From NCBI RefSeq assembly GCF_004310335.1, contig NZ_SIRS01000001.1, forward strand, positions 124,001 through 188,000: 64,000 bases of DNA. Reading direction: 5' to 3'. Made by a program: the position numbers and the translations under genes. Under the pieces are notes generated by a model. That model searched no databases and was not told the origin of the DNA. It was given only the letters and a program-made list of their open reading frames with translations. Of the stretch, positions 23,125 to 34,604 are shown piece by piece. This DNA comes from Hyunsoonleella pacifica (GTDB lineage Bacteria > Bacteroidota > Bacteroidia > Flavobacteriales > Flavobacteriaceae). Each line of letters starts with the position of its first letter. Within the stretch, counting starts at the first letter, position 1.

Positions 23125-24297
23125 CTACTCGTCTACCCGGTTTTCATCAAAAGCAGAGGGCAACAATTTTGGTATAAATTTTACCACTAAAGGCAATAAT
23201 AAAGCGCCACCAGGTAACATAAAAATCGCTAGACTAGGTATGGATTTAAAAATATCTAAAAGTTGTTCTTGTACTTTTTGCTGTTCTTCTTTATTTAAAT
23301 CCCTAACGGTAGAATGTGTGAGTAATACCATGAGTTCTTTACTGTCCTTAAGTTCTTGGTATAAACGTTTACTGTTGCGGGTAATCAACTTCTTTACCAT
23401 TTTACTGGAGTTATTGTAAAAGCTCTGCACCACATTTTTAGAACTCAATAGAGCAATGTTATCCTTGTTTACGGTATAAAAACGATTTACAACTTTTATG
23501 GCCTGTAAAGTACGAGAGAGCGGTAATTGTAAATCGGTACCCAGTTTTTCTAGAAAGTGTTGTTCGTCCACATCAATCATTTGGTCGCTCCAAGTTGCCA
23601 TACATGCTAGGTCTAGAATATAGTACCGTTCTTCTTCAGATACTATGTAATTAATGGCTTTTTTATAATCTAAATTCTCGTTTTCATTAAAGCGTAACGA
23701 CGATTGAAATAACTTTACTAAACTTTCATCATAACTATGTTTTTCTTCTTTAGCATTTAAAACGTCTAAGGCTATAGTCACAATAGCTGCTTCTAATTGT
23801 TTTATATAGGCCACGGAAAACACCTCTTTGGATAAATACTGCTGATAGGCTAACACATCTACATAAAGTAATGCGTTAATGATGAAGTAATTAAAATTCT
23901 TGGTAAGTATATTAGCATCAATTTGAATGCGTTTATGAATGATGTTTTCAAGTTGTTCACTAGATTTTATACCACCTAATAAGCCTTTAAAAAATGATGT
24001 TTTTATATCGCTTATTTCCGAATAAAAATTGATGACACTCTCTACAAAAGGTTGTTTGCAACTAGAGTTGTAATGTGCATAGTATAACGCTATACACAGG
24101 TTAACTTTACAGATTTCTTCTTCTTGGAGGTCTCGTTTTGGTAAGATTTGAGATGCAATATCTTGATTACTACCATAAATAAACCCGCAATCTCTTAACG
24201 CATCATAAAATGTGGCTCTGCTAAACTTTAAAAAAAGATTATTTAAAGCTAATTCGCTTTCAAGTTTTTTTATCCATCCTGATGCTGAAGGGTTCAT
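23125..24297 (-). CDS. LETM1-related biofilm-associated protein
   Basis: A 390-residue protein of the flavobacterial family annotated as LETM1-related and biofilm-associated. A helical N-terminal half is followed by a TerB-like segment (EERYYILDLACMATWSDQ) near 230-250. The C-terminus (residues about 340-380) has the LETM1-like sequence IPSLAIFMLPGGALLLPLVV, which could insert in a membrane. The start MNPSASGWIKKL appears family-typical. The region from this start codon to about 40 bases upstream is repeated at 28065-28120, beyond the neighbouring TonB-receptor/AraC pair. Confidence 0.8.
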   Translation of the reverse strand: MNPSASGWIKKLESELALNNLFLKFSRATFYDALRDCGFIYGSNQDIASQILPKRDLQEEEICKVNLCIALYYAHYNSSCKQPFVESVINFYSEISDIKTSFFKGLLGGIKSSEQLENIIHKRIQIDANILTKNFNYFIINALLYVDVLAYQQYLSKEVFSVAYIKQLEAAIVTIALDVLNAKEEKHSYDESLVKLFQSSLRFNENENLDYKKAINYIVSEEERYYILDLACMATWSDQMIDVDEQHFLEKLGTDLQLPLSRTLQAIKVVNRFYTVNKDNIALLSSKNVVQSFYNNSSKMVKKLITRNSKRLYQELKDSKELMVLLTHSTVRDLNKEEQQKVQEQLLDIFKSIPSLAIFMLPGGALLLPLVVKFIPKLLPSAFDENRVDE

Positions 24298-24338
24298 AGT
24301 CTTCTATTAGGAAAAGTAAAATTAAACTTTTAAGCTAA
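24282..24338. repeat. direct repeat copy A: start of the LETM1-related gene and its upstream region
   Basis: 19 bases (24282-24300) are identical to 28065-28083; the next ~38 bases remain clearly alignable (both contain TAAACTTTT and AGCT in the same order). Copy A covers the first six codons and promoter-proximal region of the intact gene. Confidence 0.85.
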
Positions 24339-24370
24339 AGATACCCGAACATATTCTTTTTTATTAAACT

Positions 24371-26746
24371 TTAATTCACTCTATTAGTTTCTTCCTCATT
24401 ACCAAATCTTCTGTTTTTTGTGCTTATTTTTTTGTTTCCAAAACTGTAACGTAGCGAAAATCTAAGGTATCTGTTATTTCTGTTTTGTCCGTATACTTGT
24501 CTAACATTGTTAATTGTAGATTCTAAATTATTTAATGCCGATGTGTTAAATACATCTTTTATAAGAGCGGAAAACTGTAAGTTTTTATTAAAGAATGTAG
24601 TACTATATCCCAAATCTAAACTAAATGTACTGCCTACTGAAAATAAGCCGTATTGCACATTAGATTCGTAATTGGCATTAACTTGAATGTTTTGGTTATT
24701 ATTAAGTTTAATATTATTATTTGAAGATGCTATGTAAGCAAAGCCATTTTGAAGTGGTGCATTAAAAGGCTTAGTAAATTTACTTTTTATATGAATTAGC
24801 GTAAAGTTGTTTTGACTCTCTAACCACTTTAATTTATTAAATGTATAACTCTCTCCTAATCCAAATACATATTGATTTAAAAAATTATTTCTAGTAACAA
24901 TTTGTGTATTTGTATCAATGTCCGACGTAAATATCACACTTGATAAATCCGTTTTAATATTGAAGAATATATTGGTAGTAAAGTTTCTTTTATGAGTATG
25001 TTTTAACTCAAAGTTATCTGTAAATGATGGTTGTAAAAAGGGGTTACCTTCACTAAAGGTATTGCTACTTACAAAAACTCTAAATGGATTTAGATTGTTA
25101 AAAGATGGTCTTTCTATACGTTTGCTATAGCTAAAGGAAAAGGTATTGTTTTCATCTTTTTTGTATAAGGCATAAACCGTTGGAAATACTTTTGAGTAGT
25201 TATTTTTATTAGTTTGATTTAAATCTTCTGAGAACCCTTCTGTTTGGGTGCTTTCATAGCGCAAACCCATTTGTAATTGCCATTTTTTACCAATTGTTTT
25301 ATTTGCACTTACATATACTGCTTGGTTGTTTTCTTTATATTTAAATGTATTGGAAATATTTGTGTCCAATACAGGTGTTCCGCTTTCAGTATTAAAAAAC
25401 GCTATGCCACTTTCACTATTTATACTGCTTATTCTCGCACCATAGGATACATTTATATGTTTAAAAGGGTGTTCCATATCTAACTTTAAACTTTTGTTTT
25501 TTATAGATTGTAAAGAAGTAGTTATTGCCGAAAGGTTTATGTTTTGAAAATTATTATTTACATCAAAACTTTCTGTTCTAAATATTCTGTTTCTATCGGC
25601 TTCATAGGTAAAGTAATCTGCATCTAATGATAGTGTTCTGCCTAAAGTATCAAGTTTCGTTATAGCGTGTAAATTTAAAGAATGGCTTAACCTTGTTTGG
25701 TCTTCATTACCATTATTAACCAATAGGGAATCTATAGTATTGGCTGGATTCACTATTCTTGTTATACTACGATCGGTAATTCCAGGTTGCGTTTCATTTC
25801 CAAAGTATTGTACACCAATTGTTGTATTATCAGTAATATTATAGTCTAATAATAATCGTCCAGAAAATGCTGTTTTACTGTCTTTCGTATCAATGGCTAT
25901 ATCCCAAGTGCTATTAGGATAAAATACTTGAAAGTCTTCTATTCCACGAATGTTCCCTCGAGTTTTATCTAAACTAGCAGATAGGTTGAGTTTGTCTTTT
26001 CTGAAAGAAAAACTGTTTCTAATTGTTGTAAAGTTGTAAGTGTCAATATTGTGTATTACAGATACTGTATTCTTCCATGAGTTTTGTGTACCAGTTTTTA
26101 GTATAATATTAATTAAACCTCCATCTCCAGCAGCGTCATATTTTGCAGGAGGCGCTGTAATTACTTCAATTTTTTTAATGTCTTCGCCTGCAATACTATT
26201 TAAATAATTTGTAAGCTCTTCGCCTGTAATTGGTATAAGTCTGCCATTTATCATAATTTGAGTATTTCCCTTTCCAAAAATTGAAACACCTTCGTTTCTT
26301 ACTTGTAAACCTGGAGTAATTTTTAACGCTTCTATAGCATCTCCATTTCTAGCGACAATACTGTTTTCAACATTAAAAACAATACGGTCTGCTTTTTGTT
26401 CGACCAATCTTTTTTTGCCAGTAATTACTACTTCATCTAATGTATTTGTGTCTTCTTTTAAATTTACAATACCTAAATCTATATTTTCTGTTGCATTAAT
26501 TTCTTTTGTGTAACTTATGTATCCTACATAACTCACGGTAAGGTCATATAGGTCTTTATCAACTTCCAATATAAAGTTGCCATCAAAATCTGAGATGGTT
26601 CCAATAACTTTAGATTGGCTATTTTTAAGTACTACATTAGCTCCAGCTACAGCACCTAAATCATCTATAATTTTACCTGTAATAGATATTTGTGAGAAAG
26701 TTAATAGTGGTAATACTAAGATTAAAATAAGGGTAATACGCTTCAT
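24371..26746 (-). CDS. TonB-dependent outer-membrane receptor (OMP_b-brl_3 type)
   Basis: I start at the ATG at 26746, which begins the signal peptide MKRITLILILVLPLLTFSQ; the longer frame from 26797 adds an unlikely leader. A carboxypeptidase-regulatory-like domain (ISITGKIIDDLGAVAGANV) is followed by a plug domain (DEVVITGKKRLVEQKADR, IKKIEVITAPPAKYDAAGDG) and a 22-strand-like barrel ending in LRFSLRYSFGN. It has no SusD partner. It lies downstream of an AraC regulator gene, with three operator-like sites in between, so its expression is probably controlled by that regulator. The substrate is unknown. Confidence 0.88.
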   Translation of the reverse strand: MKRITLILILVLPLLTFSQISITGKIIDDLGAVAGANVVLKNSQSKVIGTISDFDGNFILEVDKDLYDLTVSYVGYISYTKEINATENIDLGIVNLKEDTNTLDEVVITGKKRLVEQKADRIVFNVENSIVARNGDAIEALKITPGLQVRNEGVSIFGKGNTQIMINGRLIPITGEELTNYLNSIAGEDIKKIEVITAPPAKYDAAGDGGLINIILKTGTQNSWKNTVSVIHNIDTYNFTTIRNSFSFRKDKLNLSASLDKTRGNIRGIEDFQVFYPNSTWDIAIDTKDSKTAFSGRLLLDYNITDNTTIGVQYFGNETQPGITDRSITRIVNPANTIDSLLVNNGNEDQTRLSHSLNLHAITKLDTLGRTLSLDADYFTYEADRNRIFRTESFDVNNNFQNINLSAITTSLQSIKNKSLKLDMEHPFKHINVSYGARISSINSESGIAFFNTESGTPVLDTNISNTFKYKENNQAVYVSANKTIGKKWQLQMGLRYESTQTEGFSEDLNQTNKNNYSKVFPTVYALYKKDENNTFSFSYSKRIERPSFNNLNPFRVFVSSNTFSEGNPFLQPSFTDNFELKHTHKRNFTTNIFFNIKTDLSSVIFTSDIDTNTQIVTRNNFLNQYVFGLGESYTFNKLKWLESQNNFTLIHIKSKFTKPFNAPLQNGFAYIASSNNNIKLNNNQNIQVNANYESNVQYGLFSVGSTFSLDLGYSTTFFNKNLQFSALIKDVFNTSALNNLESTINNVRQVYGQNRNNRYLRFSLRYSFGNKKISTKNRRFGNEEETNRVN

Positions 26747-26822
26747 GACAATTGTTTTTTGATGATTTACATTTTGTTTGATGCAAAGATGTCTCACAAT
26801 ATGAAGCTACACGACCGAATGC

Positions 26823-26889
26823 AGAAAGTCGAACGTATTTATTATCAAAAAATGCGTTCGACTTTCTTTTTGTAAACGTTCGACTTTTT
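26823..26889 (-). promoter_or_regulatory. three-copy operator array before the TonB receptor gene
   Basis: The core AAAGTCGAACG occurs at 26825-26835 (plus strand) and, on the minus strand, at 26855-26865 and 26877-26887. The latter two are direct repeats 22 bp apart, about two helical turns, as for AraC-type half-sites. The first is inverted and makes a 13-bp-arm inverted repeat with the second. The array lies about 77-140 bases before the receptor start and next to the 3' end of the AraC gene. Confidence 0.75.
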
Positions 26890-26902
26890 ACAAGTAACTG
26901 TA

Positions 26903-28030
26903 TTACAGTTTTTTACGAAATACTGTAGGTGTTAAACCTGTGTGTTTTTTAAAAGCGGTATTAAATGAAGATTTAGAATTGAAACCAACTTCGTATAAAA
27001 TTTCCAATACAGTATACTTCTTTTTAGAAGGGTCTTTTAAGATGGATTTTGCCTTTTCTATGCGATAACTATTAACAAAATCGAAAAAATGTTGCCCTAG
27101 TTGTTGGTTGATTAGAATGGATAATTCGCGATGCGGGATATCTATTTGCTCTGATAATTTTTTTACAGTTAACGATGGTTCTAAAAAAGGTTCTTCATTT
27201 ACCATATACCTTTTTAGATGCTCTATTTGCTGATTCTTAGTTGTATTATTATCAGATGTAGATAACATCTCTTTAGATAATTGTAGTTTTACATTTATAC
27301 CTCTAAATAATTTAGGCGAGACTAATGCTTTAAATACTAGCCACAAACTAAAAAAAAGACCAAACGCCAAAAGAATAATCCTAAAAACATTTACGAGTTC
27401 CATATCAAAAGGACCATTATCCCTTAGGTAGCCCTTTGTATAGGTTAATAATTGACCAATAAGAATAAAAGTAATCAGTTGTTTTACCCAACGGTAATTA
27501 TCAAAAGCTTCTTTCCCTGTAAAATTTTCAAGAAGTAATTTTCTATACCTAATGATATAGTATAATTCTGCAATTATGTACACTACTTCTATCATTTTAG
27601 ACAAAGTACCTATAATTTCTGCTTCCCTGGTTTGATTATAATTTGATAAAAAAGAGGCTTGTATTTCTTGAGAAACCAAAAAGAAATTAGGTGTTAGAAT
27701 GATAATACAAATTAACCAAGGTATAGCATGTATTAAATGAATCCATTTGAGTTTAAAATCAGAATAGATAATTGACAGGATATAAAGAAATAATAAAGGA
27801 TCTTTAAAATTGGAAATTTGTATCCTTAACATTTCAACAGTTGGAGGAAATGAGATAAAATTATGATAAAAAAATACGCTTATATCAATAGCAGTGATAA
27901 TTAAAAAGCTTGCAAGTAATTGATTGCTAAGTTTTTTAGAGGTTTTTACGCTTAGTAGAAAGGTAGAAAGCAGAACAAATAGAAGAACTATAATAAAACT
28001 TATAATACCTATAATGGATAAGTTATTCAT
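26903..28030 (-). CDS. AraC-family regulator with N-terminal membrane domain
   Basis: Residues 1-235 hold about seven hydrophobic helices. The last 110 residues form an AraC/XylS-type double helix-turn-helix (LSEQIDIPHRELSILINQQL, VLEILYEVGFNSKSSFNTAF, KHTGLTPTVFRKK). Such membrane-embedded AraC proteins may sense a ligand at the inner membrane and bind DNA directly. The gene lies just upstream of the TonB receptor, with an operator array between them. Its ATG overlaps the stop of a 17-codon frame (ATGA), so its translation may be coupled to that leader. Confidence 0.9.
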   Translation of the reverse strand: MNNLSIIGIISFIIVLLFVLLSTFLLSVKTSKKLSNQLLASFLIITAIDISVFFYHNFISFPPTVEMLRIQISNFKDPLLFLYILSIIYSDFKLKWIHLIHAIPWLICIIILTPNFFLVSQEIQASFLSNYNQTREAEIIGTLSKMIEVVYIIAELYYIIRYRKLLLENFTGKEAFDNYRWVKQLITFILIGQLLTYTKGYLRDNGPFDMELVNVFRIILLAFGLFFSLWLVFKALVSPKLFRGINVKLQLSKEMLSTSDNNTTKNQQIEHLKRYMVNEEPFLEPSLTVKKLSEQIDIPHRELSILINQQLGQHFFDFVNSYRIEKAKSILKDPSKKKYTVLEILYEVGFNSKSSFNTAFKKHTGLTPTVFRKKL

Positions 28031-28080
28031 TGATTAGTTGTTGTTTGTGGGTTCTTTTTTCTATATGCTGAAGGGTTCAT
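28027..28080 (-). pseudogene. remnant of the LETM1-related gene start, now a 17-codon leader frame before the AraC gene
   Basis: The frame starts MNPSA, identical to the start of the LETM1-related protein at 24297, then diverges (YRKKNPQTTTNQ) and stops. Its TGA overlaps the AraC ATG as ATGA. It sits in direct repeat copy B. It may be only a fossil, but the overlap makes it able to act as a coupled leader peptide. Confidence 0.65.
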
Positions 28081-28120
28081 AGTTTATTATCACAATGATG
28101 TAAAAATAAACTTTTAGCTG
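28065..28120. repeat. direct repeat copy B: duplicated start region of the LETM1-related gene
   Basis: Same orientation as copy A, 3.78 kb away. It is identical over 19 bases (28065-28083) and similar over about 56. The two copies flank exactly the TonB receptor and AraC genes, as if that pair entered at the start of an ancestral LETM1-related gene. Confidence 0.85.
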
Positions 28121-28157
28121 AAAACTATTTTAATTTTTTCTTTAACAAAAATTTAAC

Positions 28158-28183
28158 AAAACCACTAAAATCATTTTTCCGTA
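28158..28183 (+). promoter_or_regulatory. ECF-sigma-type promoter before the DUF4331 genes
   Basis: AAAACC ending at 28163 and CGTA at 28180-28183, with 17 bases between AAC and CGT, resemble the AAC / CGT layout recognised by many ECF sigma factors. An ECF sigma gene lies 3.5 kb away. Transcription from here would begin near 28190, supporting the start codon at 28232. Confidence 0.4.
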
Positions 28184-28231
28184 GGTATGTCTGAGAGTCA
28201 AAAATTAATAATAACAAAATCTCAGAAAATC

Positions 28232-28882
28232 ATGAAACATTTAAAAACAATTCTAGGCGTGGGAGTTCTAGCGGTAGCTAGCTTTTTCGTAATTGCAGCA
28301 GATCATATTGATGCACCTGCTGTACAAGGTGGTACAAGTGATATTACCGATTTTTACGCTTTTCAAGGCGAAAACACATCTAACTTAGCCTTTGTGGTAA
28401 ACGTACAGGGGTTGATAAGCCCTGCTAATACTGCTAATGCTTCTTTTGATGAAGGTGTTTTGGTAGAAATTAACATTGACAACACTGGAGATAACGTGGA
28501 AGATTTGGTAATACAGGCTATTCCAAGAGATGGAAAAATGTACTTTTTTGGTCCAGTAGCCCCATCGCAAACAGGTTTAAATAGTGTGATACAAACTAAC
28601 TCTCAAGCTAGTGGAGTAGTAGCAATTACAAAATATGGAGAAAGCCCAGTAATTGGTACAAGTACTGGTATGAGCTTTTTCGCAGGACCTAGAGACGACC
28701 CATTCTTCATGGATTTTGCACAGTATTCTGAAATTATTGCTGGTAACGCTTCTGGTTTTAACGACCCAGGGACCGACACATTTGCAGGATCTAATGTTAT
28801 GTCTATCGTAGTAGAGGTTCCAAAATCAATGATTGGAGGAACAGGTACGATAAACACATGGGTAGAAACCAAAACCAAATAA
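28232..28882 (+). CDS. DUF4331 family protein, N-terminal half type
   Basis: I use the ATG at 28232, where a signal peptide starts (MKHLKTILGVGVLAVASFF); an ATG at 28187 adds 15 residues with no signal character. The mature part begins ADHIDAPAV and continues DITDFYAFQ, the hallmark N-terminal region of DUF4331. It includes MYFFGP and FFAGPRDDPFF and ends at TWVETKTK. In the fused form of the family the chain would continue with a QxDQMGRPAVNTVF segment. Here that part is encoded by the next gene, 28 bases downstream, so the two products may form one complex. Confidence 0.85.
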   Translation: MKHLKTILGVGVLAVASFFVIAADHIDAPAVQGGTSDITDFYAFQGENTSNLAFVVNVQGLISPANTANASFDEGVLVEINIDNTGDNVEDLVIQAIPRDGKMYFFGPVAPSQTGLNSVIQTNSQASGVVAITKYGESPVIGTSTGMSFFAGPRDDPFFMDFAQYSEIIAGNASGFNDPGTDTFAGSNVMSIVVEVPKSMIGGTGTINTWVETKTK

Positions 28883-28910
28883 AAGTTATTAACTTATTAA
28901 GATATAAATT

Positions 28911-29465
28911 ATGAAAATTTTAAAAATATTAACGATAACCCTAACACTATCATTTTTAGTATTTAATTGCTCTAATAATGATGATGATGTAACTATACCT
29001 TCAGGTCCAGATTTCTCTGGAACTTATACTCAAGCAGATCAAATGGGGAGACCAGCAGTAAATACTGTGTTTGTATCATCTTCAAGTAAAGATATGTTTA
29101 ATACTACTATACCTTCACAACAAAGTGCAGCGTTTCAAAGCATGTTTGAAACTAATTTAACAGGTTTAAGCCCTGCATTTGCAAACCCAGGCGATCAAAA
29201 TGCTTTAGGGCAAGATGCGGCAACATTCACAGGATTACTTGCTACTGATGTTTTAAATGTCTCTTTAGATGGAACAACTACATTTTTTGATGGAACTAAT
29301 GTATTAACAGGTCGCGCTTTAGCCGATGATGTTATTACCGTAGAGCTTCTGTTAATTTTTGGAGGAGAAGATTTTTCTGAAAACCCAACACTATCCAATG
29401 ACAATGTGGATGCTAATGACAAAGCATTTTTAAGCACATTCCCTTATTTGGCGTCTCCTTGGTAA
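28911..29465 (+). CDS. DUF4331-like lipoprotein, C-terminal half type
   Basis: A lipoprotein signal peptide with lipobox LVFNC is followed by a low-complexity acidic linker. Then comes a region starting QADQMGRPAVNTVFV, which corresponds to the C-terminal half of DUF4331, with FFDGTNVLTGRALADDVI and FPYLASPW at the end. It is co-transcribed with the previous gene and ends at a clear terminator. The function is unknown. The pair is probably surface- or periplasm-located. Confidence 0.82.
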   Translation: MKILKILTITLTLSFLVFNCSNNDDDVTIPSGPDFSGTYTQADQMGRPAVNTVFVSSSSKDMFNTTIPSQQSAAFQSMFETNLTGLSPAFANPGDQNALGQDAATFTGLLATDVLNVSLDGTTTFFDGTNVLTGRALADDVITVELLLIFGGEDFSENPTLSNDNVDANDKAFLSTFPYLASPW

Positions 29466-29482
29466 TACTATTTAATTATTCT

Positions 29483-29517
29483 CCGAGTATGTCTCATTAA
29501 GGCATATTCGGGTTTTT
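29483..29517 (+). terminator. terminator after the DUF4331 pair
   Basis: Eleven-base stem CCGAGTATGTC / GGCATATTCGG (two G-T pairs), loop TCATTAA, then G and T5. Confidence 0.82.
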
Positions 29518-29541
29518 AATTTCAAACAAAAACTACATAAA

Positions 29542-30840
29542 ATGAAACCTATATATCTAATATTTTATATCACTTTACTTTTTGCATATAGTTGTAAAAA
29601 TAAAACGGAATTGCCTTCTGTTGTTTCAAACACAAAAGATTATAATCAGTATTTACAAGTTGAAAGAAATGAGATTTTGGATGCTGCAAAACAAGACTAT
29701 GTATTTTGGGAAAAAAAGCTAGAGAAAGCGCCAAATCAGTTTCCTTATTTGGCAAAAGCTGCAGCATCTCAATCTCTGTTATTCAATGAAACAGGTAAAA
29801 TTGAACATTTAATTAATGCAGAAAAAAAATTAGTTGTAGCGAATAACGCTGTAAATTATAGCAATTCTGGTTATCTAAGAGCTTTGGCAATGAATTATAT
29901 CTCTCAGCATAAATTTAAAGAAGCTTTAGGACTTTTAAAAAAGGCAGAAGTAAATGGAGATCGTTTAAAATCAACTCAAAAGATGCTATTTGATGTGTAT
30001 TTGGAATTGGGAAATACAGATGAAGCAAAAAGCTATCTTTCTAAAATTGAGAATTTTAAAGACTTTGACTTTCTGATTAGATTATCTAAATGGAGCGATC
30101 ATATTGGTGATTTAGATAAAGCTATTATTTACTTAGAAAAAGCTACAGAAAAAGTTGAAGCTTCTAAAAATAAAAATTTGATGCAGTGGGCTTATACAAA
30201 TTTAGCTGATTACTATGGTCACGCTGGTAGAATTGAAGATTCATATCAACATTATTTAAAGGCATTAGAACTAAATGCTAATGATGCTTATGCTAAAAAA
30301 GGAATAGCTTGGATAGTATATTCGCACGAGAAAAATGCGGATGAAGCACTACGTATTTTGAATACTATTACTAAAAATTATGATACACCTGATTACCATT
30401 TATTAAAAGCTGAAATAGCCGCTTTTAAAGGCAATACAGATTTAGAAAATAAGGAGATTGCTCAGTATAAAGAGAAAACAGCTGATACATTGTATGGCGA
30501 TATGTACAATGCATACAATGTGCTAATTTTTGCTAAAAATAAAGCTGAAATAGATAAAGCACTGCAAATAGCAACTAAAGAAATTAATAACAGACCAACA
30601 GCGCAATCTTATGATTTATTGGCTTGGACGCATTATAATAATGGTAATATTAAAGAAGCATTAGATATAGTAGAAAACCATGTTACTGGTTACACGTTTG
30701 AGCCTGAAGTTTTATACCACATGGCTGAGATTTATAAAGCTAATGGAAAACTTAACGAAGCTAAACATTTAAAAGGAGAACTTTTAAGTAGTAGTTTTGA
30801 ACTTGGTCCATTAACAATACAAACAGTTAAAAATATATAG
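29542..30840 (+). CDS. TPR-repeat lipoprotein
   Basis: Lipobox YSCKN follows a signal of 17 residues. The rest is an array of tetratricopeptide-like helix pairs, e.g. AYTNLADYYGHAGRIEDSYQ and AYAKKGIAWIVYSHEKNADE, interrupted by less regular parts. It is probably exported and acts as a protein-interaction scaffold. It starts 77 bases after the DUF4331-like gene, behind that gene's terminator, so it may depend on read-through or on its own promoter. Its position suggests a role with the DUF4331 pair. Confidence 0.8.
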   Translation: MKPIYLIFYITLLFAYSCKNKTELPSVVSNTKDYNQYLQVERNEILDAAKQDYVFWEKKLEKAPNQFPYLAKAAASQSLLFNETGKIEHLINAEKKLVVANNAVNYSNSGYLRALAMNYISQHKFKEALGLLKKAEVNGDRLKSTQKMLFDVYLELGNTDEAKSYLSKIENFKDFDFLIRLSKWSDHIGDLDKAIIYLEKATEKVEASKNKNLMQWAYTNLADYYGHAGRIEDSYQHYLKALELNANDAYAKKGIAWIVYSHEKNADEALRILNTITKNYDTPDYHLLKAEIAAFKGNTDLENKEIAQYKEKTADTLYGDMYNAYNVLIFAKNKAEIDKALQIATKEINNRPTAQSYDLLAWTHYNNGNIKEALDIVENHVTGYTFEPEVLYHMAEIYKANGKLNEAKHLKGELLSSSFELGPLTIQTVKNI

Positions 30841-30938
30841 TTGTATGGAGAAAACTAAAACAAATTGATTTTTGAGGGAAAATTGATTGTGCTAGGTACA
30901 ATCTTAAGAAGATTGATTTTTAGTTTTTTTGTTTGATG

Positions 30939-30979
30939 AAAGCCACTCAACTTCAGAAATGAATTGGGTGGTTTTTTTT
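30939..30979. terminator. terminator between the TPR gene and the anti-sigma gene
   Basis: Stem CCACTCAA / TTGGGTGG (one G-T pair) extended by A-T pairs, followed by T8. It lies between convergent genes. Confidence 0.85.
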
Positions 30980-31010
30980 GATATTTCTTTATTTGGTTTT
31001 CTAGATATTA

Positions 31011-31814
31011 TCAACCAGTTTCAACTACACCCAATGTGTACAACTGTTCCATTGTAGGGGAGTCACTTCCACCTTTAGGCTCAAGTGTAATACCAAAAGC
31101 TTCACTTTCATTGGCATTATCTATTTCGAAAATTTTATTGGTGTCTGTCATAAAATCATCGATAATACCTAAACTAGTTGGTGTTAGCGGACTTAATTTT
31201 AATGACCAAACTTGATATACCTTCCCTTCAGGAGGTGCGGGTAAACCTTGTGCATCTAAAAATATACGTTGGGAAGCTTTATCCCAATAGACTTTTGCAA
31301 AAGTATTGGAGAAATTACCTTGTCCAGCTAAAGGAACTTGCAGAATGTTATCATCACGCAATACAGAAATAAGTGTATTTGCTTCAGCTAAACTATTTTT
31401 AGAATTTTCTATATGTTGTTCTAAAATTGATTGTTGGGTTTCTGATATTTTAATGTCAGATTTTAATTGATTATTTTGTTGTGTGGTCCATAATAAGCCA
31501 ACACCTAAAATTATGGATGCTGCCCAACCAGTATAAGTTACCCAGTTGTATTTAGTTTTGTTAATTGGGATAACTTTAGATGTTCCAGTATTAAGATTGA
31601 GTTTTTCTTGTACCTCTTTTAATATATGAGTATTTGAACTTTGTGATACAGATGCTGTTAATTTTACTACAGCAGATTCAATTTCCAGAACTTCTTGTAA
31701 GATTTCAGGATGTTTTTGCATAAGCGTATAGACTTCTTCATTTTCTTTTTCAGAAAGCGTACCAGCTACATAAAGCTCTAAAATCCCTGATGCTATGTAT
31801 GCGTTAATATCCAT
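31011..31814 (-). CDS. anti-sigma factor, RskA type
   Basis: A short cytoplasmic N-terminal domain (MDINAYIASGILELYVAGTL, a zinc-less anti-sigma helix set) precedes one membrane helix at about 90-109. A coiled-coil-like stretch (112-155) and a periplasmic RskA domain (VYWDKASQRIFLDAQGLPAP, GKVYQVWSLKL, FGITLEPKGGSDSPT) follow. RskA-type proteins hold an ECF sigma factor and release it upon an envelope signal through regulated proteolysis. The start lies one base after the sigma stop, so they are coupled partners. Confidence 0.92.
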   Translation of the reverse strand: MDINAYIASGILELYVAGTLSEKENEEVYTLMQKHPEILQEVLEIESAVVKLTASVSQSSNTHILKEVQEKLNLNTGTSKVIPINKTKYNWVTYTGWAASIILGVGLLWTTQQNNQLKSDIKISETQQSILEQHIENSKNSLAEANTLISVLRDDNILQVPLAGQGNFSNTFAKVYWDKASQRIFLDAQGLPAPPEGKVYQVWSLKLSPLTPTSLGIIDDFMTDTNKIFEIDNANESEAFGITLEPKGGSDSPTMEQLYTLGVVETG

Positions 31815-31815
31815 T

Positions 31816-32346
31816 TTAATTCAAAACCATGTTTCTAAGTTCTTGAATACAGTTTCTATTTCTTGTTTTAATTGTGCCTATGGGCATATCAAGAGCTTCT
31901 GATGCCTCACTCTGCGTATAGCCTTTAAAGTATAGCAGTTCTATAACTTCTTTACATTTTTCGGCAAGTTTTGTTACAAACTTTGCTATCCCAATGGCAT
32001 CAGTTTTTCTATCTAAATTTTCACTAGTTTGTAATATATCTACGAAAAAAGTGGCATCGAGGTTTTGCTTTGAAGTTTTGTATGCTTTAGATCTGGTTTT
32101 ATCTATAGCTGCATTTCTAGCAATATTTAAAAGCCAAGTAAAAAAACGCCCTTTTTTTGGAGCATAGCTGTCTGATTTATGCCATGCTTTGATAAAAACA
32201 TCTTGCATAACTTCTTCTGCTATAGCATTATCCCTAACAATATTGTAAATAACACCATGCATACTATCACTATACATGTTGTATAATGTCTCAAACGCCT
32301 TTTCGTCTTTTCTTTTGAATTTTTCTATCAAACTATCTAAATCCAT
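31816..32346 (-). CDS. ECF-type RNA polymerase sigma factor
   Basis: A 176-residue sigma-70 family protein. Region 2 is visible as AFETLYNMYSDSMHGVIYN, AIAEEVMQDVFIKAWHK and FTWLLNIARNAAIDKTRSK. Region 4 spans LAEKCKEVIELLYFKGYTQ and a helix-turn-helix SEASEALDMPIGTIKTRN. It is encoded directly before its RskA-type anti-sigma. The DUF4331/TPR genes that converge on it have an ECF-like promoter and are plausible targets. Confidence 0.93.
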   Translation of the reverse strand: MDLDSLIEKFKRKDEKAFETLYNMYSDSMHGVIYNIVRDNAIAEEVMQDVFIKAWHKSDSYAPKKGRFFTWLLNIARNAAIDKTRSKAYKTSKQNLDATFFVDILQTSENLDRKTDAIGIAKFVTKLAEKCKEVIELLYFKGYTQSEASEALDMPIGTIKTRNRNCIQELRNMVLN

Positions 32347-32483: not shown

Positions 32484-34604
32484 TTAGTCGATTAAAATTT
32501 TTAAAATTTGAATAGCAGCGTCACTAATTTTTGTGCCAGGACCAAAAACGGCTAAGGCTCCAGCATCAAATAGAAATTGATAATCTTGCTTTGGTATTAC
32601 GCCACCAACAATTACCATAATATCATCGCGTCCGTAATTTTTTAATGCTTCAATTACCTGTGGTACAAGTGTTTTGTGTCCTGCAGCTTGTGAAGATACG
32701 CCAAGAATATGTACGTCATTTTCAACGGCTTGTTTCGCTGCTTCTTCAGGTGTTTGAAATAAAGGGCCAATATCTACATCAAAACCAATATCAGCATAAC
32801 TTGTAGCTACAACTTTTGCACCACGATCATGACCGTCTTGTCCCATTTTTGCAATCATTATTCGAGGTCTTCTACCTTCTTGTTCTGCAAAAACATCAGC
32901 TAGTTGTTGTGCTTTTTTAAAAGTGTCATCGTTTTCTATAGCTTTACTGTACACGCCCGAGAATGATTTTATTTGTGCTTTATGTCTTCCAAATTCTGCT
33001 TCTAGTGCATCACTTATCTCACCTAAAGTAGCACGTTTTTTCGCAGCTTCAATAGCTAAAGCTAATAAATTTTCTTGTCCTGATTTAGCAGCTACTGTTA
33101 ATTTAGATAATACAGACTTAACTTCATCAGAGTTTCGAGTAGCCTTAATACGATTTAAGCGTTCAATTTGAGCGTCTCTTACCGTTTGATTATCCACCTC
33201 TAGAGTAGAAATAGGATCCTCTTTTTCTAGTTGATATTTATTTACGCCAACAATAATATCTTGTCCAGAATCTATCTTTGCCTGTTTTCTTGCTGCCGCT
33301 TCTTCAATTCTAATTTTAGGTATGCCGGCTTCAATAGCTTTGGTCATGCCTCCTAGATCTTCAATTTCTTCAATGAGTTTCCATGCTTTTTTTGCTATAT
33401 CATGAGTTAACTTTTCAACATAGTAGCTGCCTGCCCAAGGATCTACTGTTTTAGTTATTTTAGTCTCTTTTTGTATATATAATTGTGTGTTTCTAGCAAT
33501 ACGAGCAGAAAAATCAGTTGGTAATGCGATAGCTTCATCTAAAGCATTGGTATGCAAACTTTGTGTACCGCCAAAAACTGCAGCAGTAGCTTCAATGGTA
33601 GTTCTAGCAACATTATTAAACGGATCTTGCTCTGTTAAGCTCCAACCTGAAGTTTGGCAATGTGTGCGTAATGCTAAAGATTTTGGATTTTTAGGATTAA
33701 ATTGTTTAACAATTTTTGCCCAAAGCATTCTAGCGGCTCGCATTTTAGCAATTTCCATAAAATGATTCATACCAATAGCCCAAAAGAAAGAAAGCCGAGG
33801 CGCAAAGGTGTCAATATCCATCCCAGTCTCTAAGCCTGTTTTTAGATATTCTAAACCATCTGCCAATGTATAAGCGAGTTCTATATCACAAGTAGCACCA
33901 GCTTCTTGCATGTGGTAACCAGAAATACTAATACTGTTGAACTTAGGCATGTGTTTACTAGTAAACTCAAAAATATCAGAGATAATTTTCATGGAAGGTT
34001 TGGGCGGATAGATGTAGGTATTACGCACCATAAATTCCTTTAAAATATCGTTTTGAATAGTGCCCGAAAGTAATTCTAGTTTTACACCCTGTTCTTCGGC
34101 TGCGACAATGTAAAACGCCATGACGGGAAGTACAGCACCATTCATAGTCATGGAGACCGACATTTTATCAAGAGGAATGTGATTAAACAGGATTTTCATG
34201 TCTTCAACCGAATCAATGGCTACACCAGCTTTTCCCACATCTCCAACCACACGTTCATGGTCTGAATCATACCCTCTATGCGTTGCCAAATCAAAAGCTA
34301 CAGATAGCCCTTTTTGTCCAGCAACCAAATTTCTTCTATAAAACGCATTACTTTCTTCGGCTGTACTGTAACCTGCATATTGACGAATAGTCCAAGGACG
34401 TCTTACATACATCGTGCTATATGGACCTCTCAAGTATGGAGGTATTCCAGCTGCGAAATTTAGGTGTCTTATATGTTTTAAATCCTCTTTAGAATATAGA
34501 GATTTTATACTGATACCTTCTGCGGTGTCATGAGTTTTTATATCAGAGTTTTGATTTCTGTATTCACTTTGAATCTTTATATGTTGTAAAGATTTCCTAG
34601 ACAT
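32484..34604 (-). CDS. scpA: methylmalonyl-CoA mutase large subunit
   Basis: A 706-residue adenosylcobalamin enzyme that interconverts succinyl-CoA and methylmalonyl-CoA. The N-terminal TIM-barrel domain contains [19 protein letters not shown] and [16 protein letters not shown]. The C-terminal B12-binding domain has DGHDRG with the cobalt-ligand H592. It is the last gene of an operon that begins with uridine kinase. Its ATG overlaps the upstream lipoprotein stop as TAATG. The small subunit is encoded three genes upstream, with two lipoprotein genes between. Confidence 0.96.

Follow-up and report, generated by a model that had tools for sequence, protein, structure and literature searches.

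In a 64,000-nucleotide window of the Hyunsoonleella pacifica genome (contig NZ_SIRS01000001.1, positions 124,001 to 188,000), a gene pair encoding a TonB-dependent receptor and an AraC-type regulator lies between two direct copies of the start of a LETM1-related gene. Comparison with related genomes leads us to regard it as probable that this repeat is a seam, left where recombination brought together two alternative layouts of one chromosomal site. The order in the window is LETM gene, its promoter region (P_L), receptor, AraC, a relic of the LETM start, a second spacer (P_R), the DUF4331 block and a methylmalonyl-CoA mutase gene. Layout A, as we infer it, would have comprised the LETM gene, its usual promoter P_L, the receptor and AraC; layout B would have had the order of the closest relative found, G002 (LETM protein 99% identical), i.e. 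LETM gene, P_R, DUF4331 block and mutase gene. The genome of the window is referred to as G000.

The two copies of the repeat, 24282–24300 and 28065–28083, are identical at 19 of 19 bases in the same orientation, as had been noted in the original prediction. On the minus strand, the left copy comprises codons 1–5 of the LETM-related gene, one base of codon 6 and the three bases upstream of the start; the right copy, also read on the minus strand, is a relic of a LETM start, and its counterpart in G002 is the real one. No other 19-mer is repeated in direct orientation in the window, and no 20-mer recurs; first-order Markov simulations of the window produced a repeated 19-mer of any kind in 1 of 40 cases. 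A search of the 4.1-Mb genome with up to two mismatches returned the two repeat copies alone (reversed control, zero). The possibility that the sequence is a widespread general promoter element, named in advance as a challenge to the prediction, was rejected on this count. Between the copies there are just two open reading frames of at least 90 amino acids, which Pfam assigns to the receptor and the AraC regulator, and so the enclosed content is also as predicted. The anticipated lack of a transposase was confirmed: none of eight proteins encoded at 21.3–30.8 kb matched a transposase family in Pfam (E up to 0.001), and no transposase or recombinase gene was found between the copies among open reading frames of at least 90 amino acids. 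Likewise, among the 25 inverted pairs listed, out of 26 of at least 16 bases, none had arms at both edges that could serve as terminal inverted repeats.

Beyond the 19 identical bases the copies differ. About 37 further bases per copy align loosely, with a best local score between the spacers of 31 (20.8 on average after shuffling; p ∼0.03), which lends weak support to the earlier impression that the copies are alignable over about 56 bases. On the left, the repeat continues into P_L (24301–24345, minus strand, right-hand limit approximate), which we delimited by its match to the LETM-mutase gap of G007 and by its scores with other relatives. Positions 24300–24332 match the G007 gap at 32 of 33 bases, and the P_L spacer scores 29 with G007 and 26 with each of G001, G005 and G009. 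Scores were low with G002 and with the right spacer (16 each), and with G008 (10), G010 (12), G003 (4) and G004 (7). P_L thus resembles well just four of the nine relatives compared and appears to be a LETM promoter region common to several relatives, not to all. On the right, the repeat passes into P_R (28084–28127), a LETM/DUF4331 spacer of the G002 type; the whole of 28065–28127 is identical to the G002 site (63/63 bases), and P_R runs into the promoter-like element of DUF4331. Because the left copy leads into a G007-like promoter and the right copy into a G002-type spacer, the two appear to share a LETM start and not to descend from one recently copied 57-base segment. The 57-bp target duplication originally proposed was rejected for this reason.

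The intact LETM-related gene (23125–24297, minus strand; LETM1_RBD, PF07766, residues 334–386) sides with G002. Site counts in the gene gave 207 positions at which G000 and G002 agree against G007, 14 at which G000 alone differs, 18 at which G002 alone differs and 7 at which all three differ; a donor tract, for which these counts were inspected, was rejected as none is visible. Within the repeat, bases 24289 and 24298 of both copies are those of G002 and differ from G007.

Of 40 genomes searched, 20 matched the LETM-related gene, namely the window's own and 19 of the 39 relatives. G002 contains the empty site that had been predicted: its LETM gene is directly divergent from DUF4331, with a single copy of the segment and no receptor/AraC pair. 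The LETM-DUF4331 adjacency recurs in 10 of the 19 relatives, and neither the window's receptor nor its AraC gene was found near LETM in any of the 19 (16 kb fetched), the reverse of a situation in which all relatives would carry the pair there without a repeat. The empty site and the identity of its spacer to the right copy support a seam, as do the affinity of the left spacer for the G007 group over the right spacer and the two bases that both copies share with G002 against G007.

In close relatives the pair has another place. The receptor gene (24371–26797, minus strand; likely true start 26746, as in orthologues) encodes OMP_b-brl_3 and CarbopepD_reg_2 domains, and the regulator gene (26903–28030, minus strand) encodes an HTH_18 domain and a hydrophobic N-terminal part; four hydrophobic segments of the protein lie above the cut-off. 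With an AraC helix-turn-helix and a receptor barrel side by side on the same strand, they resemble other AraC (HTH_18)/TonB receptor (OMP_b-brl_3) pairs, but differ in standing apart from the mutase gene and in having a LETM start relic in front. The mutase gene of the window (32484–34604, minus strand; MM_CoA_mutase, B12-binding) is the one that precedes the pair in close relatives: in G005 and G003 the orthologous pair lies 28 bases downstream of it, with AraC 83% and 75% and the receptor 80% and 76% identical to those of the window respectively. Pairs at least 75% identical are present in 3 of 12 genomes of the genus, the window's genome counted. We kept 80 of the 253 named AraC loci found; in 69 of them AraC and receptor sit side by side, and a mutase gene is present at 11 (a count that includes the G005 and G003 loci again, as L119 and L120), directly before AraC at seven (L119–L124, L126) and with one further AraC gene in between at four (L125, L127, L129, L154). 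The remaining 69 loci, most of which come from genera further away, gave no mutase gene. That G005 and G003 have the pair behind the mutase gene, and that a mutase gene is upstream at the 11 loci, is further support for a seam.

A tree of the pair places the window with G005 and then with G003 (supports 84/89 and 100/100), and a mutase/mutA tree groups the same three with their internal order open. It is plausible, not proven, that the pair descended together with the mutase gene in these genomes. The placement of the Algibacter locus L127 conflicts between the two trees; in other cases the pair has therefore probably moved between species, and the pair tree is weak evidence for vertical descent. 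A search for the pair elsewhere with flanking duplications of its own, which the original prediction had suggested, gave nothing comparable: among 69 pairs with both flanks, words of more than 14 bases were shared in the window's pair alone, and the longest in the other 68 was 14. For this reason, and given that close relatives have it behind the mutase gene, the pair seems not to be a mobile module.

The surroundings of the site have also been rearranged. In G000, G002 and G007 the LETM side adjoins the mutase cluster, and in G007 neither block separates the LETM gene from the mutase gene, its immediate neighbour. The gene w1866 adjoins M16 in G000 and G007 and parA in G002, where the M16 gene is missing from this position. 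G009 and G010 have their M16 and mutase genes side by side, and w1866 comes after LETM, or after the LETM-DUF4331 block, in G001, G003, G004, G005, G009 and G010. A single inversion that broke next to LETM at one end and next to the mutase gene at the other would account for the new junctions, and a rearrangement common to G000, G002 and G007 appears to have brought the mutase cluster to LETM. Both junctions, LETM-mutase cluster and w1866-M16/parA, favour the seam. Over 1866–32346 of the window, the w1866–w13180, HK-LytTR-Fic-LETM and DUF4331 blocks lie between the M16 and mutase genes; in relatives these blocks are separate or reordered.

The same three genomes form a group in the backbone tree (100/100), which rejects G007 with G001 (p-AU 4.6e-10). 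In the DUF4331-block tree the group is rejected (p-AU 0.00034) and G007 pairs with G001 (96/98); the AU tests were chosen after the trees had been seen. From this conflict, which also speaks for a seam, we conclude that exchange or movement of blocks around the site took place on more than one occasion. The DUF4331 block of the window (28187–32346) encodes DUF4331a, DUF4331b, a TPR protein, an anti-sigma factor (RskA_C) and a sigma factor (Sigma70_r2/r4), and would be the block of the other layout. In G007 and G001 a DUF4331-TPR-anti-sigma-sigma block is at the guaA locus (L078:4351–8666 and L079:4204–8317); G009, in which DUF4331 is beside LETM, has the same guaA neighbours and no block there. 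Identity to G002 per 100 columns is 86–97% at 28065–28864 and 68–92% at 28865–31000, a stretch that begins at the end of DUF4331a and takes in the TPR gene, with a lower value in the final part-block of 46 columns; the drop suggests a mosaic ancestry. A promoter-like element, TTTAACAAAACC..TTTTTNCGTAGGTA (28152–28187, plus strand), precedes DUF4331 and is conserved in the genus, with one match each (up to two mismatches) in 10 of 10 genomes that have DUF4331 and in 0 of 2 that do not. It may be read by the neighbouring sigma factor. DUF4331 had no match in the literature searched.

In the proposed recombination, the homologous end of the join would lie in or at the shared LETM gene, and there P_L picks up from the LETM start in the same register as in G007, with no donor tract seen in the gene. 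The illegitimate end would be at 28064/28065, where the AraC upstream region would meet codon 6 of layout B's LETM, and the outcome would be the 19-bp LETM-start relic beside AraC. The 34 bases upstream of AraC that end at this junction (28031–28064, minus strand) had no detectable similarity to either the G002 LETM start or the G005 mutase-AraC gap (two comparisons); this is what an illegitimate junction should look like, yet the unlikeness to the G005 gap also weighs against the seam. One homologous and one illegitimate end, with no need for mobile-element genes, would be shared with homology-facilitated illegitimate recombination, which its source describes from transfer experiments (PMC3240628); the window case differs in being read from its anatomy, with a donor layout that was not seen. 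Specifically, no genome was found with layout A intact, and G007 has P_L without the pair. Three further points count against the seam. The LETM gene has no imported tract, which leaves the homologous arm without a visible stretch of donor DNA. The low P_L scores of G002, G008, G010, G003 and G004 mean that LETM spacers also diverge on their own, and P_R could be one such variant. Finally, 19 of 19 identical bases beside strongly diverged spacers would be odd if the fusion were old.

The event could have run in either direction, and we prefer neither. The window genome may have gained P_L, receptor and AraC, with G002 as the unmodified state; this is favoured by the perfect identity of the repeat beside strongly differing spacers and disfavoured by the lack of a donor tract in LETM, although a crossover near the start would leave none. 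Alternatively, the fusion may have taken place in a common ancestor with G002, which would then have shed the pair when the repeats recombined. The loss is favoured by P_R, which lacks much of the LETM promoter of G007, G001, G005 and G009, as a relic would, and disfavoured by the undecayed start of the relic.

Closest to the original prediction is an insertion in which a G002-like chromosome took up the receptor/AraC module at its LETM start and duplicated 19 bp of the target. Much of what was expected of an insertion held: the sister genome G002 has the site without the pair, the identity stops sharply at 19 bases, LETM has no donor tract and the 19-mer is not a general promoter. However, the 57-bp duplication and the mobile nature of the pair were not supported, and the left edge of the supposed insert is a LETM-type promoter that stands in register with the LETM start and so looks homologous and not like a free end. 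Unlike a transposon or insertion element, the window case has no transposase or recombinase gene, no inverted-repeat pair at both edges among those listed and no flanking word over 14 bases at the other 68 pairs, and we consider an insertion unlikely. Chance similarity or an assembly error is easier still to doubt: a repeated 19-mer can arise by chance, as the one simulation in 40 illustrates, but the right copy opens 63 bases that G002 has unchanged in its LETM/DUF4331 spacer, where they start with a real LETM start, and the contig measures 849 kb, so that either explanation is hardly credible.

A further alternative is tandem duplication with differential loss. If the rearrangement of the clade had first produced the order LETM-DUF4331 block-receptor-AraC-mutase, a duplication from the LETM start to AraC, after which a DUF4331 block and a pair each disappeared once, would account for the swapped order. 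Tandem duplication–random loss has been applied to bacteria too. All genes keep their post-rearrangement orientation with just two blocks swapped, and both repeat copies bear the lineage's own LETM start bases; swapped neighbouring blocks with a gene-start remnant at the seam are what the window shares with this scheme, which the papers found describe for animal mitochondrial genomes. The window differs in that no remnant of the lost copies was found in 14 gap comparisons. The sigma-mutase gaps of G000 and G002 gave no convincing trace of a second AraC or receptor: of 10 comparisons, the lowest p was ∼0.05 (the G000 gap with the AraC start of G005) and the others were ≥ 0.12. The remaining four, between the LETM-receptor gap and four sigma upstream regions, showed no similarity. 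In addition, the spacers diverged strongly and the 19 bases did not, and the DUF4331-block tree parts G000 and G002 from G007. Duplication and loss is on these grounds quite improbable, and recombination between two layouts remains our preferred reading of the repeat.

The putative operator sites of the pair are strikingly conserved. Three putative operator half-sites, AAGTCGAAC, lie in the AraC-receptor gap at 26826–26886 (26826 forward, 26856 and 26878 reverse on the plus strand). In the AraC-receptor gaps of 70 pairs (the window's and 69 others), 12.8 kb in all, the motif was counted 153 times, against 21 in the remaining 1.59 Mb from the 80 loci and the window stretch, and at least two half-sites are present in 67 of the 70 pairs. 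Flavobacteriaceae contribute 65 of the 69 other pairs; three of the four from outside the family or unassigned have at least two sites, and the Saprospiraceae one does not. Half-sites are spaced by 20–23 (direct) or by 29–30 or 51–52 (inverted). The spaced direct pair, the one arrangement searched, was found once in the genome with up to two mismatches, and hence AraC probably controls its own receptor above all. We infer that the pair is an operator-controlled receptor unit with a putative operator.

By the proposed join, AraC would now have a copy of the LETM start region in front of it, and no longer the mutase gene. A 17-codon open reading frame (28027–28080, minus strand) opens at the relic LETM start codon, and its TGA overlaps the AraC ATG (ATGA); on rough reasoning, such an overlap arises by chance in several percent of cases. 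P_R may still hold part of a LETM-directed promoter aimed at AraC. We suggest only tentatively that AraC captured a second LETM promoter and start codon, with a 17-codon leader, and that the pair would be expressed on LETM signals and not after the mutase gene. As part of the same suggestion, the pair may represent a little-described, widely conserved one-target unit, in which a membrane-anchored AraC protein would read fixed AAGTCGAAC half-sites before its own receptor.

Ordinary genome plasticity accounts for most of the case; it left a clear scar and an interesting by-product in regulation. A gene-start repeat that resembles the footprint of a mobile element can be the seam between two native gene layouts. 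Given more sequenced strains, the order of events could be worked out from the empty site and the two types of spacer, and the conserved half-sites make the regulator-receptor pair directly testable.
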